Source of the DNA: Amycolatopsis sp. 2-15
GTDB taxonomy: Bacteria; Actinomycetota; Actinomycetes; Mycobacteriales; Pseudonocardiaceae
Direction: 5' to 3'
Length of the DNA stretch: 64,000 nucleotides
NCBI RefSeq assembly: GCF_030285625.1
Contig: NZ_CP127294.1
Coordinates: 1,064,001 to 1,128,000 of the forward strand
Shown: positions 36,082-39,587 of the stretch, piece after piece
How positions within the stretch are numbered: the stretch's first letter is position 1
Layout: each line of letters begins with the position of its first letter
Made by a program: the position numbers and the translations under genes
Notes under the pieces: model-generated
Told to the model about the DNA's origin: nothing
What the model saw: the letters and a program-made list of their open reading frames with translations, nothing else
Database searches by the model: none

Positions 36082-37497
36082 ATGGGGACCACAAAGAGAT
36101 CGGCGCTGCTGCTGGTGCTGTGCGCGCTGGGGATCGCGCTCGGCGGCGGCACGGCGCGCGCCGACGGGGCACCGGTCGGCGCGGACATCCAGGTGGCGCA
36201 GACACTCGGCGCACGCGAGCTGACCGTGATCATCCGGCGGATCGACGTGACCCCGGGCGACCTGCACGTCGACATCGCCACGCACGCGGGCACCGCACCC
36301 GGCCCGCTGCACCTGGCGGCGGCCTCCGACGGCGTCGTGTTCTCCCGCGGCGACGTCGTGCTCGGCGCCACGCCCGGGCTCTACCCGGGCACGGTCGGCG
36401 TCGATCACGCCGGACCATGGGAATTGCAGCTGTCCGACGGCACGACCACCGCGACCATCCCGTTCGTCGTGCCTGCTCGCGTGGTGCCGCCATGGGAAAA
36501 GGCGACGTACGGCGGTTTTGTTGCGGCAGGGGCGTTTCTGCTCATCGCCTTGGTCGTGGCGGTGCGGTCACGCCGGACCGCCTACGCCCTGCTACCGGCT
36601 GGTGGGATGGTCGCGGCGCTGGCCGTCGCGGTCACCGGCGCACTGCTGTCCACCGGCACTCCCCCGCCGCCCGCGCCGGGCGCGCAGCTGGACGCGACCG
36701 TCGACAACGTCACCGATCCGTACGCGCTGTCCCGCCTGCCCGTCACGGACTACTCGCGGCCGCCGGTGAACCTGACCGTTGGCACGCAAGGAAAGTCCCT
36801 CGACCTCCACTTCACCGACGGGTCCACCGGCCGGCCCGCCGACGACCTCGTGATCCACGACGACGCCTTGGTCCACCTCATCGTCGTCTCGCCCTCGGGC
36901 CGGTTGTGGCACCTCCATCCGGTACGGGTGGCACCCGGCGAGTACCGCATCGACTTCACTCCACCGGAGTCCGGGACTTACGCAGTGGCCGCGGAACTCG
37001 AACGACGCGGCGGCGGCGTTCAGCTGGCACGGTCCACTGTGGACTTCGACGGCGTCACCGGCAACCAAGCCGAAGTTTCCGCAGGACCAGGAAAACGCGT
37101 CGTCGACGGAGTGCCGATCGACGTCACCACCACGGCCGTGCAAGCCGGCACGCCGGTCACCGTCACCGCGCACTTCCCCGCCGGCGACCTCCAGCCGTGG
37201 CTGGGCATGCTGGGCCACCTGATCGTCGTCGGGCCGCTGCCGTCGGAGCACAACGTCGGCGCCGCGGCCGCCACCGCACCGACGTGGGCCCACGCGCACG
37301 CGATGCCGCCGTACGTCCCGGGCCTGACGGGCGTGCCGGACGAAACCGTCGCCGCGTACGGGCCCGACGTGCCCTTCACGTACACCTTCCCCGCGCCCGG
37401 CCGCTACCGGCTGTGGCTGCAGGCCGAACGCGGCTGGTCCGTTCTGACCGTGCCGGTGGTGCTCGACGTGCCGGCTTTTCCCGGAGGGGGCCAATGA
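36082..37497 (+). CDS. Envelope protein with YtkA/CopC-like domains and two membrane segments
   Basis: The 471-residue protein has a signal peptide (cleavage after TARA near residue 26), an extracytoplasmic beta-rich domain (about 30-130) of the YtkA/FixH-like type, and two membrane segments (about 141-160 and 167-189). A larger domain of about 270 residues follows with many potential metal ligands: HLIVVSPSGRLWHLHPV (H264, H276, H278), then LGMLGHLIVVGPLPSEHN and AHAHAMPP near 375-410. A copper- or redox-linked envelope role is inference. It is first in a four-gene operon; the next gene's ATG overlaps its stop by 4 bp. Confidence 0.6.
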   Translation: MGTTKRSALLLVLCALGIALGGGTARADGAPVGADIQVAQTLGARELTVIIRRIDVTPGDLHVDIATHAGTAPGPLHLAAASDGVVFSRGDVVLGATPGLYPGTVGVDHAGPWELQLSDGTTTATIPFVVPARVVPPWEKATYGGFVAAGAFLLIALVVAVRSRRTAYALLPAGGMVAALAVAVTGALLSTGTPPPPAPGAQLDATVDNVTDPYALSRLPVTDYSRPPVNLTVGTQGKSLDLHFTDGSTGRPADDLVIHDDALVHLIVVSPSGRLWHLHPVRVAPGEYRIDFTPPESGTYAVAAELERRGGGVQLARSTVDFDGVTGNQAEVSAGPGKRVVDGVPIDVTTTAVQAGTPVTVTAHFPAGDLQPWLGMLGHLIVVGPLPSEHNVGAAAATAPTWAHAHAMPPYVPGLTGVPDETVAAYGPDVPFTYTFPAPGRYRLWLQAERGWSVLTVPVVLDVPAFPGGGQ

Positions 37498-37895
37498 AAA
37501 CGAAACGTCCGGTGGTGCTGATCAGCGTCGTCGTGGTGGTAGCCGCGGTGATCGCCGGCTGGCTGTTGTTCGGCGGCGGGTCGAGCGGCCCCACCGTGCT
37601 GAAGTCGACGACCGGGCCCTACACCGTGCAGCTGTCCGCGGACGCGCCACGGGTCGGCGGCAACACGTTCGCGTTCGCGGTGACCGGTCACGCCGTCGAC
37701 GGCGTGACGGTGGAGCCGGTGATGCCGCAGATGGGCCACGCCATCACGCCCGTGCCGGCGGCCGCCGACGGGCCGGGGCACTTCCGCGCCGCCGACGTCG
37801 GCCTGCCGATGGCGGGCCAGTGGGAGATCACGGTCTCCCTGCGCGGGCCGGCGGGCGCCGGCCAGGTCGTGTTTCCCGTGTTGGTCAACCAGTAA
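37494..37895 (+). CDS. YtkA/FixH-like membrane-anchored protein
   Basis: The 133-residue protein has an N-terminal membrane anchor (PVVLISVVVVVAAVIAGWLLF) and an extracytoplasmic YtkA/FixH-like domain. The segment VEPVMPQMGHAITPV supplies Met and His in the M-x-x-M-G-H pattern seen in metal-handling relatives. The start ATG 37494 has GGAGGGGG upstream and overlaps the preceding stop. It is second in the operon. Confidence 0.75.
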   Translation: MKTKRPVVLISVVVVVAAVIAGWLLFGGGSSGPTVLKSTTGPYTVQLSADAPRVGGNTFAFAVTGHAVDGVTVEPVMPQMGHAITPVPAAADGPGHFRAADVGLPMAGQWEITVSLRGPAGAGQVVFPVLVNQ

Positions 37896-37918
37896 GACCA
37901 GTAAGAAGGGGGCTGGGG

Positions 37919-39046
37919 ATGGATCTCACCGCGTCGGGGGCCCGGGTGGTCACCGCGACTCGAAGGCCAGGGCTGGCACCCGCGGGCACGGTGCTCGCGG
38001 GGTCGGTGATCTCGATGGTCGGGCTCACGTGGGACGTGCAGTGGCACGACGACGTCGGCCCGGACACGTTCTTCACGCTGCCGCACCTGTTCCTGTACTC
38101 GGGCAGCGCGATCGTCGGGCTGGCGAGCCTGGCCGTGGTGCTGCTGACCACGGCCGCGCAACGCGCCGGGCGGCCGGTGGACCCGCGCATCGGCGGGCGC
38201 GCGATCGGCGTGTTCGGCCGGACGTTCGCCGCGCCGGCCGGCTACCTCACCTCCGGCGTCGGCGCCGCGCTGTTCCTGCTCTACGGGCTGTGGGACCAGT
38301 GGTGGCACGGGCTGTACGGCTTCGACGCCGTGATCGACTCGCCGCCGCACATCGGGCTGCTGCTCTCCGTGACGTTGTCGATCATCGGCACCACGATGGT
38401 CTTCGCGGCCGCGCGGGAGCACCGCTGGGGCCGGATCGGGGTGTTCGGTTCGCTGGCCGTGCTGATCGCGTTCAGCGCGGTGACGGCGCTGGGGCTGCAG
38501 CAGGTGAACCTCGACCCGGTGGAGGCGACGTCGGTCGGCTCCACACTGTTGTCCGTGCTGCTCGTGTTCGCCGGCGCCGGGTTCCTGCGCCGGCCCGGCG
38601 GCGCCGTGGCGACAGCGGCGATCCTGGCCGTGATCCAGGCCGTCTTCTGGTGGTTCTCACCGTGGGCCGCGCGCACGTACGCCGATCTCGTCGGGCTGCC
38701 GGTGCGCGACTACGTGAGCGGCGTGCCGGACATGCCCGCGCTGATGCCGATGGCGCTCCTGCCGGTGGCGGCATTGGTCGAGGGCTACCTGCTGATCGCG
38801 CGACGGCGGGGGTGGCAGCTGGGCCGCGTGTCCGTGCTCGCGGGCGGGCTGGCCGGGCTCCTGGTCGGCGCGACCCTGCTGGTGCAGCGCGGGTTGGTCT
38901 ACTCCGGTCACGTCGGTGACCTCACGGCGGTTCTTGCGACCGGCGTCGCCGCCGGCGTGCTGGGTGTGACGGGCGGCTTCTCGGGCTGGCGCTTCGGCGG
39001 CATGCTCCGCCTGCTCGCCCCGGTTTCGGAGGGTTCGAATGCGTAA
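37919..39046 (+). CDS. Polytopic membrane protein with duplicated WDxxWH...PH motif
   Basis: The 375-residue protein has about ten membrane segments. Near the N-terminus WDVQWH...GPD...PH (W38, D39, H43, D49, H56) is matched by WDQWWH...GFD...PPH (W125, D126, H130, D136, H144). This suggests an internal duplication giving two intramembrane metal- or heme-type sites. I know no characterised family. ATG 37919 with an AAGGGGG ribosome-binding site is used, rejecting a longer frame over the preceding gene. The next gene overlaps by 8 bp, so the four genes are one operon. Confidence 0.6.
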   Translation: MDLTASGARVVTATRRPGLAPAGTVLAGSVISMVGLTWDVQWHDDVGPDTFFTLPHLFLYSGSAIVGLASLAVVLLTTAAQRAGRPVDPRIGGRAIGVFGRTFAAPAGYLTSGVGAALFLLYGLWDQWWHGLYGFDAVIDSPPHIGLLLSVTLSIIGTTMVFAAAREHRWGRIGVFGSLAVLIAFSAVTALGLQQVNLDPVEATSVGSTLLSVLLVFAGAGFLRRPGGAVATAAILAVIQAVFWWFSPWAARTYADLVGLPVRDYVSGVPDMPALMPMALLPVAALVEGYLLIARRRGWQLGRVSVLAGGLAGLLVGATLLVQRGLVYSGHVGDLTAVLATGVAAGVLGVTGGFSGWRFGGMLRLLAPVSEGSNA

Positions 39047-39587
39047 AACACTGCTGGCGCTGGGCGCGGTCATCGGCCTGCTGCTCGCCACCGCCCTGCC
39101 GGCCAACGCGTACGAGCCGGTGAACATCGTCCACACCGAACGCGTGCAGGCCGGGCCCTACGGCCTCACCGTGGGCTTCTCGACGTGGCCGCTGCGGGCC
39201 ATGCAGTCGCTGGACTTCACCTTCATCCCCGACGGCGGCATCGGCACCAAAACGGGCACGCTCGCTCTGCACAACCCCTCGGCCGCCGCGTTCCAGCGCC
39301 CGCAGCCGCTCGCGCGCCACCCGCGCAAGCGCGACGTCTGGGGTCTGGACATCCGCGCCCTGCCGACGGAGGGCACGTGGGCGTTCCGCTTCACGATCAA
39401 CGGCCCCCGGGGCCAGGGCACGGGCGAGCTGAAGAGCCTGCCGGTGCTGGCGCAGCCGGGACCGCCGATGGGGTTGAGCTGGGCGATCAGCAGCCTGCCA
39501 CTGATCGGGCTCGTGGTGCTGGTGGTCATCGCCTGGCGCCGCACGCGCGGCCGGCTGCGCGGCGGCGGGGTGCCGGCCGCCGCCTGA
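39039..39587 (+). CDS. Secreted/anchored YtkA-like protein, last gene of the envelope operon
   Basis: The 182-residue protein has a signal peptide (MRKTLLALGAVIGLLLATALPANA), a beta-rich extracytoplasmic domain (VNIVHTERVQAGPYGLTVGFSTWPL, then WAFRFTINGPRGQG) similar to the YtkA-like class, and one C-terminal membrane anchor (WAISSLPLIGLVVLVVIAWRRTRGR). It overlaps the upstream polytopic gene by 8 bp, so it is coupled. A hairpin terminator follows at 39608-39638. Confidence 0.6.
   Translation: MRKTLLALGAVIGLLLATALPANAYEPVNIVHTERVQAGPYGLTVGFSTWPLRAMQSLDFTFIPDGGIGTKTGTLALHNPSAAAFQRPQPLARHPRKRDVWGLDIRALPTEGTWAFRFTINGPRGQGTGELKSLPVLAQPGPPMGLSWAISSLPLIGLVVLVVIAWRRTRGRLRGGGVPAAA

Follow-up and report, generated by a model that had tools for sequence, protein, structure and literature searches.

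We analyzed a stretch of 64,000 nucleotides from the genome of Amycolatopsis sp. 2-15 (hereafter the window; contig NZ_CP127294.1, positions 1,064,001 to 1,128,000), in which an earlier reading made from the letters alone (the sequence-only reading) had noted a run of four envelope genes coupled by 4- and 8-bp overlaps. Four open reading frames (ORFs), here called g1 to g4, do lie there on one strand, with a 4-bp overlap between g1 and g2, a 23-bp gap between g2 and g3, and an 8-bp overlap between g3 and g4 (Table 1). ORFs were called and transmembrane (TM) segments counted with simple scripts. The host genome is one contig of 10.05 Mb, and among the matches listed the nearest named homologues in both the g3 and the g1-side searches came from Amycolatopsis. 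Our subject is g3, a polytopic membrane protein with two copies of an Asp/His/His triad spaced like the copper sites of the C subunit (PmoC) of particulate methane monooxygenase (pMMO), and the three proteins encoded beside it.

Table 1. Genes and features of the g1-g4 locus, in window positions.
Feature	Position	Strand	Description
g1	36082-37497	+	471 aa
g1 domains			signal-peptide-like start; beta-sandwich 36-130; TM 137-162 and 166-191; linker; beta domains 229-322 and 337-463
g1 H265 and H277-x-H279	36874..36918	+	second beta domain; invariant, putative metal site
g1 M376, H379 and H404-x-H406	37207..37299	+	third beta domain; invariant, putative metal site
g2	37494-37895	+	133 aa; N-terminal TM anchor and YtkA-like domain
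g2 M77, H82, M106	37722..37811	+	invariant in 28 of 28 aligned rows; putative copper-binding Met/His set
g3	37919-39046	+	375 aa, ATG at 37919; core of ten long predicted helices with two D/H/H triads; N half with PmoC-like sites, C half with predicted PmoA-like fold
g3 site 1, WDVQWHDDVGPDTFFTLPH	38030..38086	+	D39/H43/H56, CuC-like, +4/+13; end of TM1 and start of TM2
g3 site 2, WDQWWHGLYGFDAVIDSPPH	38291..38350	+	D126/H130/H144, CuD-like, +4/+14, Asp replacing Asn; end of TM3 and start of TM4
g3 residues 168-374	38420..39040	+	PmoA-like helical half, from predicted structure only
g4	39039-39587	+	182 aa; signal-peptide-like start, extracytoplasmic domain, C-terminal TM

The duplicated WD..WH...G.D....(.)PH motif that the sequence-only reading described in g3 lies exactly at residues 38-56 and 125-144. 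A homologue search with whole g3, made without selecting for the motif, returned 709 matches at E <= 1e-3; in the best 120, which were listed, both triads occurred with exactly the g3 spacing. Because these close homologues are all at least 54% identical to g3, distant relatives make a harder test of conservation. A second, alignment-based search gave 1451 proteins, and the 120 best of them, again those listed, formed a clade in which a g3-like core continues into further domains (the fused clade). All 120 carried the double triad, with a site 1 spacing of +14 in 112 and +15 in 8 and a site 2 spacing that was always +14. Both triads are therefore kept in 240 of 240 listed homologues (120 close and 120 fused), as is the site 2 spacing, which rules out the motif as a quirk of one genome. 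We also built a 66-row alignment from hand-picked rows, including 32 close and 28 fused proteins (from 120 listed of each kind), in which the distant rows were 19-26% identical to g3 and all six triad residues were invariant. Fourteen of its 17 invariant columns were motif residues (W38, D39, H43, D45, G47, D49, H56, D126, W129, H130, G134, D136, P142 and H144), the others being G35, P106 and G309. The motif, whose His, Asp and Trp residues the sequence-only reading proposed to test in homologues, is strongly conserved.

The duplicated triad is not due to chance. In the DNA that we fetched, the double-triad pattern occurred in 87 of 91 PmoC ORFs and in 114 of 190 g3-family ORFs (partial ORFs are among the 190, and +15 in site 1 falls outside the pattern). 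Of the 5568 other ORFs with 200 aa or more, 9 had it, representing 6 distinct and seemingly out-of-frame sequences. When 149 actinobacterial genomes, host included, were searched with whole g3, 10 gave matches. Six of the nine other genomes held full-length proteins (587-670 aa) in which both motifs were recognisable (L002, L004, L006-L009); L003 was a contig-cut piece with both motifs, L005 a piece with the first motif only, and L010 an apparently unrelated protein. A scan of a genome collection found 539 stretches encoding relatives, and the best 80, which were kept, were mostly from Actinomycetota and included three metagenome-assembled genomes (MAGs), two labelled Chloroflexi and one Dormiibacterota. 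Because the patterns used in that scan derive from the motif, we take it as evidence of spread and not of conservation, which is partly built into the loci it found.

According to the sections consulted of a pMMO study (PMC12576850), CuC is held by Asp156/His160/His173 and CuD by Asn227/His231/His245, all in chain C, and Arg165 sits near the CuD water. The order and offsets of these triads in PmoC/AmoC (PF04896) equal those of g3, +4/+13 and then +4/+14, and both proteins have a Trp before the first His, an Asp six residues after it and a Pro two residues before the last His. PmoC reads D-G-T-W-H-x4-R-D-T-D-F-T-P-S-H and N-E-W-G-H...A-P-L-H, and g3 reads D-V-Q-W-H-x4-P-D-T-F-F-T-L-P-H and D-Q-W-W-H...S-P-P-H. 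The CuC-type spacing D-x3-H-x12-H was exact in 120 of 120 close homologues listed, and its residues were present in 66 of 66 alignment rows. Past the first His, Arg-Asp stands at +5/+6 in all 120 fused-clade proteins listed and in 11 of 11 PmoC, whereas the clade of the window has Pro-Asp there in 120 of 120 listed, with Pro in the place of R165. Further differences from PmoC are the site 1 spacing of the fused clade (+14 or +15), the lack of a Pfam match for g3, and the length of g3, which is 375 aa with a second helical half, versus about 255 aa for the PmoC sequences fetched. A PmoC motif drew 96 viral stretches; in the 80 loci read, the first site was complete in 77 (three were cut or altered) and the second in 72. 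Two of the viral PmoC were tested and both matched Pfam AmoC. PmoB was found in none of 33 viral pmoC records, and the PmoB probe matched nothing anywhere in the scan.

Profile comparison with hhalign placed both sites of the g3 family in register with those of 11 diverse PmoC although the motif was not supplied (E 2.1e-5, probability 77, score 47.8). Against 11 viral PmoC the values were E 2.2e-4 and probability 45, and the fused clade alone gave E 8.7e-5 and probability 60 against PmoC. The N-terminal half taken alone gave E 4.8e-6 and probability 86, and the C-terminal half gave no match to PmoC. One hundred block-shuffled PmoC profiles scored at most 34.4 (mean 17.2, standard deviation 3.4), and reversed PmoC scored 19.7. 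We also scored a pool of polytopic ORFs, 272 in all, with hidden Markov models (HMMs). The PmoC HMM ranked 46 of the 147 ORFs of the g3 family higher than any of the 120 decoys, and a g3-family HMM placed 3 of 5 PmoC above its own best decoy; the decoys include related, overlapping and wrong-frame ORFs, and a score line was obtained for 93 of the 120.

The AlphaFold2 model of g3 had a predicted local distance difference test value (pLDDT) of 89.6 and a predicted template modelling score (pTM) of 0.90. When it was re-aligned with VIA-align, the eight best PDB entries were all pMMO or ammonia monooxygenase (AMO); the best of these matches ran over residues 168-374, and 3 of the 8 fell on those residues, the counterpart there apparently being PmoA. 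By hhalign the PmoA-like half of g3 has no detectable sequence similarity to PmoA/AmoA (PF02461), and unlike PmoA it shares one chain with the PmoC-like half. A Foldseek search with the model returned nothing with E < 0.001 against the PDB or viral models, and phmmer of g3 against PDB sequences gave nothing relevant, as did the fused-clade and g1 profiles.

Among the partner proteins, g1 is the one whose layout recalls PmoB/AmoB. PmoB has a cupredoxin-like domain on either side of a pair of TM helices, and its CuB site is made by the N-terminal His of the mature protein plus an HxH. The g1 model likewise has a beta domain, two TM helices and a beta domain, and each protein has a W/Y-HxHP segment; unlike PmoB, g1 has one additional beta domain, and hhalign of g1 against PmoB gave no match. 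Its HxH pairs are confined to the later beta domains. Both of the His/Met sets of g1 were invariant in 30 operons and in a 53-row alignment, for which 52 of 120 listed proteins were hand-picked from 717 matches. Foldseek with the g1 model gave 220 matches below 0.001; in VIA-align the first domain resembled the copper protein CrdA in fold, followed by generic beta-sandwich proteins, and PmoB was absent among the rows listed. On the models, then, g1 and PmoB share a layout, and homology between them is unproven.

The sequence-only reading had called the neighbours of g3 YtkA/FixH-like and His/Met-rich. The first description holds for g2, which matched YtkA above the cut-off (PF13115, 38.3 bits, E 2.1e-9, cut-off 25.9), and not for g1, which stayed below it (15.3 bits) and otherwise touched only Filamin, also sub-threshold (16 bits). 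The second was overstated: His and Met make up 3.0% and 0.85% of g1, 2.2% and 3.0% of g2, and 1.6% and 1.6% of g4. What is noteworthy is which His and Met residues stay invariant rather than how many there are. In g4 the invariant residues are H32, E34, D59, H94 and D104. Pfam gave g4 a weak CcmD-like touch (13.2 bits against a cut-off of 25.6), and hhalign of g4 with g1, PmoB or the fused-clade C-terminal domain found no match; g4 stays without an assigned family.

Several observations limit the likeness to PmoC and its partner subunits. With 12 motif columns masked, the hhalign score fell to 18.0, which confines the similarity to the sites themselves. For the window clade alone the alignment spanned 27 columns at no better than E 0.0085, and adding 30 operon rows gave E 0.008; the PmoC HMM gave g3 of the window 2.7 bits against 3.5 bits for the best decoy. 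PmoC chains were absent among the VIA-align rows listed for g3, which does not in itself speak against a PmoC fold of the N half, and no whole-fold match to PmoC was seen. Site 2 has Asp for the Asn of CuD in 66 of 66 rows, the site 1 spacing is longer in the fused clade by one or two residues, and a relative at locus L281 has a different second-site spacing. The N-terminal His of CuB is missing from g1, whose first His is residue 62, well past the signal-like start, and no CuMMO (copper membrane monooxygenase) Pfam family, that is PF04896 (C), PF02461 (A) or PF04744 (B), matched at E <= 1 in g1-g4 or in 57 fused relatives.

The dependence of the profile match on motif columns, the want of a whole-fold match and the drifting spacings are what one would see if D-x3-H...H hairpin sites for zinc, iron or manganese had arisen in an unrelated protein and resembled PmoC by coincidence of spacing. 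We judge such convergence improbable. Site order, the site 2 spacing kept in 240 of 240 listed homologues and the flanking Trp, Asp and Pro all match PmoC, the fused relatives listed have the PmoC-type Arg-Asp in 120 of 120, and the structural comparison picked pMMO and AMO for the other half of g3. The same results do place g1-g4 outside the CuMMO family proper, because they lack the Pfam subunit matches and the CuB N-terminal His and have Asp for Asn in site 2. Nor does an ordinary CuMMO elsewhere in the host explain the link: a genome-wide search for the C and A subunits found nothing over the cut-off for PF04896 or PF02461, which rules this out for those two. An actinobacterial HMO/BMO (Mycolicibacterium chubuense NBB4, plasmid pMYCCH.01) provides a CuMMO-type locus in the same phylum; unlike g1-g4, it has separate annotated C, A and B genes. 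The AmoC family was present in 3 of 396 sampled genomes of Actinomycetota.

The triads might instead bind no metal, the D/H/W residues bracing hairpins or handling protons in a transporter. WD and WH pairs can be structural, metal occupancy of the triads is predicted from sequence, and the ten-helix length would fit a transporter. We regard this as very improbable: six invariant Asp and His residues, together with invariant His and Met residues in linked domains, exceed the needs of packing, and no transporter family matched in Pfam or NCBIfam. Indeed g3 had no match in either database at E <= 1, which rules out an ordinary annotated family, and NCBIfam had no match for any of g1-g4. In the portions we could consult of the open-licence PMC literature we found no description of the g3 family, a weak negative.

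A more serious alternative, though one we hold short of probable, is copper trafficking, in which g3 would pass copper across the membrane, or insert it there, through its triads, fed by g1 and g2 in the manner of YcnJ and CtaK, with the likeness to PmoC left over from a shared ancestral fold. In the sections consulted of one report, YtkA domains help to load copper into cytochrome oxidase, and YcnJ (CopC-CopD-YtkA) and CtaK (YtkA) serve the terminal oxidases of Bacillus subtilis (PMC13344008). The locus is like these systems in its YtkA-like g2 and in attaching copper-type extracytoplasmic domains to membrane proteins, and the CrdA-like fold of the first g1 domain, the invariant H...HxH sets of g1 and the M/H set of g2 all fit such a role. 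Unlike YcnJ, however, g1-g4 have no CopC or CopD domain at E <= 1 (Pfam, NCBIfam), nor any match to CtaG or Sco at that threshold, and trafficking alone leaves the PmoC-type pair of sites and the PmoA-like second half unexplained.

We then surveyed the linkage of the four genes. A g3 match was present in 33 of 120 genomes of the family of the window, host included, and 30 of 40 listed places outside the window were fetched, from 24 genomes. In 29 of these 30 loci g1-g2-g3-g4 occurred in the same order and on the same strand, even in paralogues about 36% identical in g3; the sole exception (L243) is of the fused type. Fusion of g1 and g2 was seen in two of the 29 intact operons, and P0346 is another g1-g2 fusion. 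Three genomes each carry three whole copies of the operon: G270 (L221, L233, L234), G208 (L225, L237, L238) and G246 (L223, L240, L241).

The genes around the operon were viewed over 20 kb in 21 loci, window included. A histidine-kinase-like gene (one member Pfam-tested) borders the operon in 15 (L257, L258, L260-L268, L271, L272, L274, L275), and a response-regulator-like cluster, recognised by look only, is present in 8, in 6 of them beside that kinase. The operon of the window itself is without either neighbour. Its luciferase-like oxidoreductase gene (Pfam) has a counterpart in 0 of the 20 other loci and its alpha/beta hydrolase gene in two; several further neighbours recur in L256, the sole other locus from the same genus. 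The neighbour genes of the window look incidental. By eye, and with few clusters Pfam-scanned, we recognised no substrate-pathway gene among the recurring neighbours, which favors copper trafficking, and no copper ATPase, chaperone or oxidase gene, which speaks against it.

In the fused clade a g3-like core is followed by a domain that hhalign showed to be homologous to g2 (E 1.3e-6, probability 90.6) and then by a last TM helix; the g2-like identity of the domain rules out g4 at the C terminus. For one fused-clade alignment, 56 of the 120 listed proteins were hand-picked. The fused-clade profile matched 24 of 198 sampled genomes of the phylum, the host and G114 only through more divergent relatives. 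We examined the neighbourhoods of 80 fused-type loci, with flanks of up to 8 kb and many shorter. A member of a MerR-type regulator cluster (one member Pfam-tested) was present in 40, a polytopic protein with HGxGxRxDLP in 30 (L144-L187 and others), and a flavin-monooxygenase-like gene in 10 (L111, L131, L141, L151, L166, L169, L179, L180 and two more). The HGxGxRxDLP protein is presumably what goes by the name fenitrothion hydrolase, and among open-licence PMC papers we found none linking that name with copper. Within 2.2 kb of the fused relative, 12 of the 80 loci encode a small lipoprotein with HxHG/HxHS (DELHVHGYD-like), a count reached after two of 14 script candidates were judged spurious. 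It and the HGxGxRxDLP protein are possibly further parts of the fused-type system. In L284 a cupredoxin gene lies upstream of the fused relative (PF13473, 32.7 bits, cut-off 27); with the lipoprotein, it indicates that copper-type proteins recur beside the fused clade too.

More distant relatives were also seen. The host genome encodes a second, very divergent g3 relative of 397 aa (L280:8574-9764, minus strand; C1:1902574-1903764), with a first triad WDMSWHFMWLRDDLAPPH, a second triad DVINHRVNGLDLTAWSPSH and the PmoC-type Arg-Asp kept; a flavin-binding monooxygenase gene (L280:1864-3366, Pfam FMO-like) lies about 5 kb from it. The L281 relative (L281:7649-8746, minus strand; 366 aa) is a third type, with a first triad and a second triad whose H-to-H distance is +17, and this longer spacing suggests a still wider superfamily. 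One fused relative (L148, SPQJ01000016.1) comes from a record that bears the title Bacillus sp. AZ43 and the mark UNVERIFIED_ORG; it stands amid Blastococcus-like loci and the record is probably mislabelled.

The sequence-only reading saw in these genes a metal, perhaps copper, or redox system of the cell envelope, and the evidence supports it, with copper as the metal suggested by the PmoC-type sites. The explanation that we prefer, tentatively and as nearly probable, is that g1-g4 form one envelope copper complex, distantly akin to pMMO and AMO, with the C and A parts fused. In such a complex g3 would be the membrane core, its four N-terminal helices holding two PmoC-type copper sites at the ends of helix hairpins, with D39/H43/H56 acting like CuC and D126/H130/H144 like CuD. 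Its six C-terminal helices would take the place of PmoA, putting C and A in one chain, while g1, with a beta domain, a TM hairpin and two beta domains bearing H...HxH, would stand in the place of PmoB as extracytoplasmic scaffold. The YtkA-like g2 would deliver copper and g4 would serve as an accessory subunit. The most likely action of the twin sites would be to activate oxygen with the help of copper for oxidation of a small hydrophobic molecule or a quinol. The genes and their linkage, the conservation and spacing of the triads and the profile alignment of the sites with PmoC are observed; copper as the metal, assembly into a single complex, the counterparts to PmoA and PmoB, and oxidation with its substrate are inferred. 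Oxidation is the function we favor, since all listed homologues retain the two PmoC-type sites together and not just one of them; copper trafficking is close behind. The simplest account is that the g3 core shares ancestry with the C subunit, and probably the A subunit, of CuMMO. A bolder version, which we think unlikely, would make g1-g4 the first known representative of a second major CuMMO branch, C-A fused, spread over Actinomycetota and into MAGs labelled Chloroflexi and Dormiibacterota, oxidizing a substrate in ordinary soil bacteria and standing close to where the methane and ammonia monooxygenases arose.

CuMMOs are the agents of biological methane and ammonia oxidation, and the host actinomycetes are not known to be methanotrophs. 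As stated in the excerpts consulted, CuMMO trees have been rooted only among CuMMOs themselves (PMC6215863), the membrane-bound nature of pMMO makes it difficult to study (PMC11194816), and its active site is still disputed (PMC12576850). A large uncharacterized family with PmoC-type twin sites would give both an outgroup for CuMMOs and a model for CuC/CuD chemistry. Even without oxygenase activity, the family would reveal a role other than oxygenation for the PmoC-type copper fold. If experiments confirm the complex that we propose, soil actinobacteria would hold an unrecognized relative of the copper enzymes that oxidize methane and ammonia.

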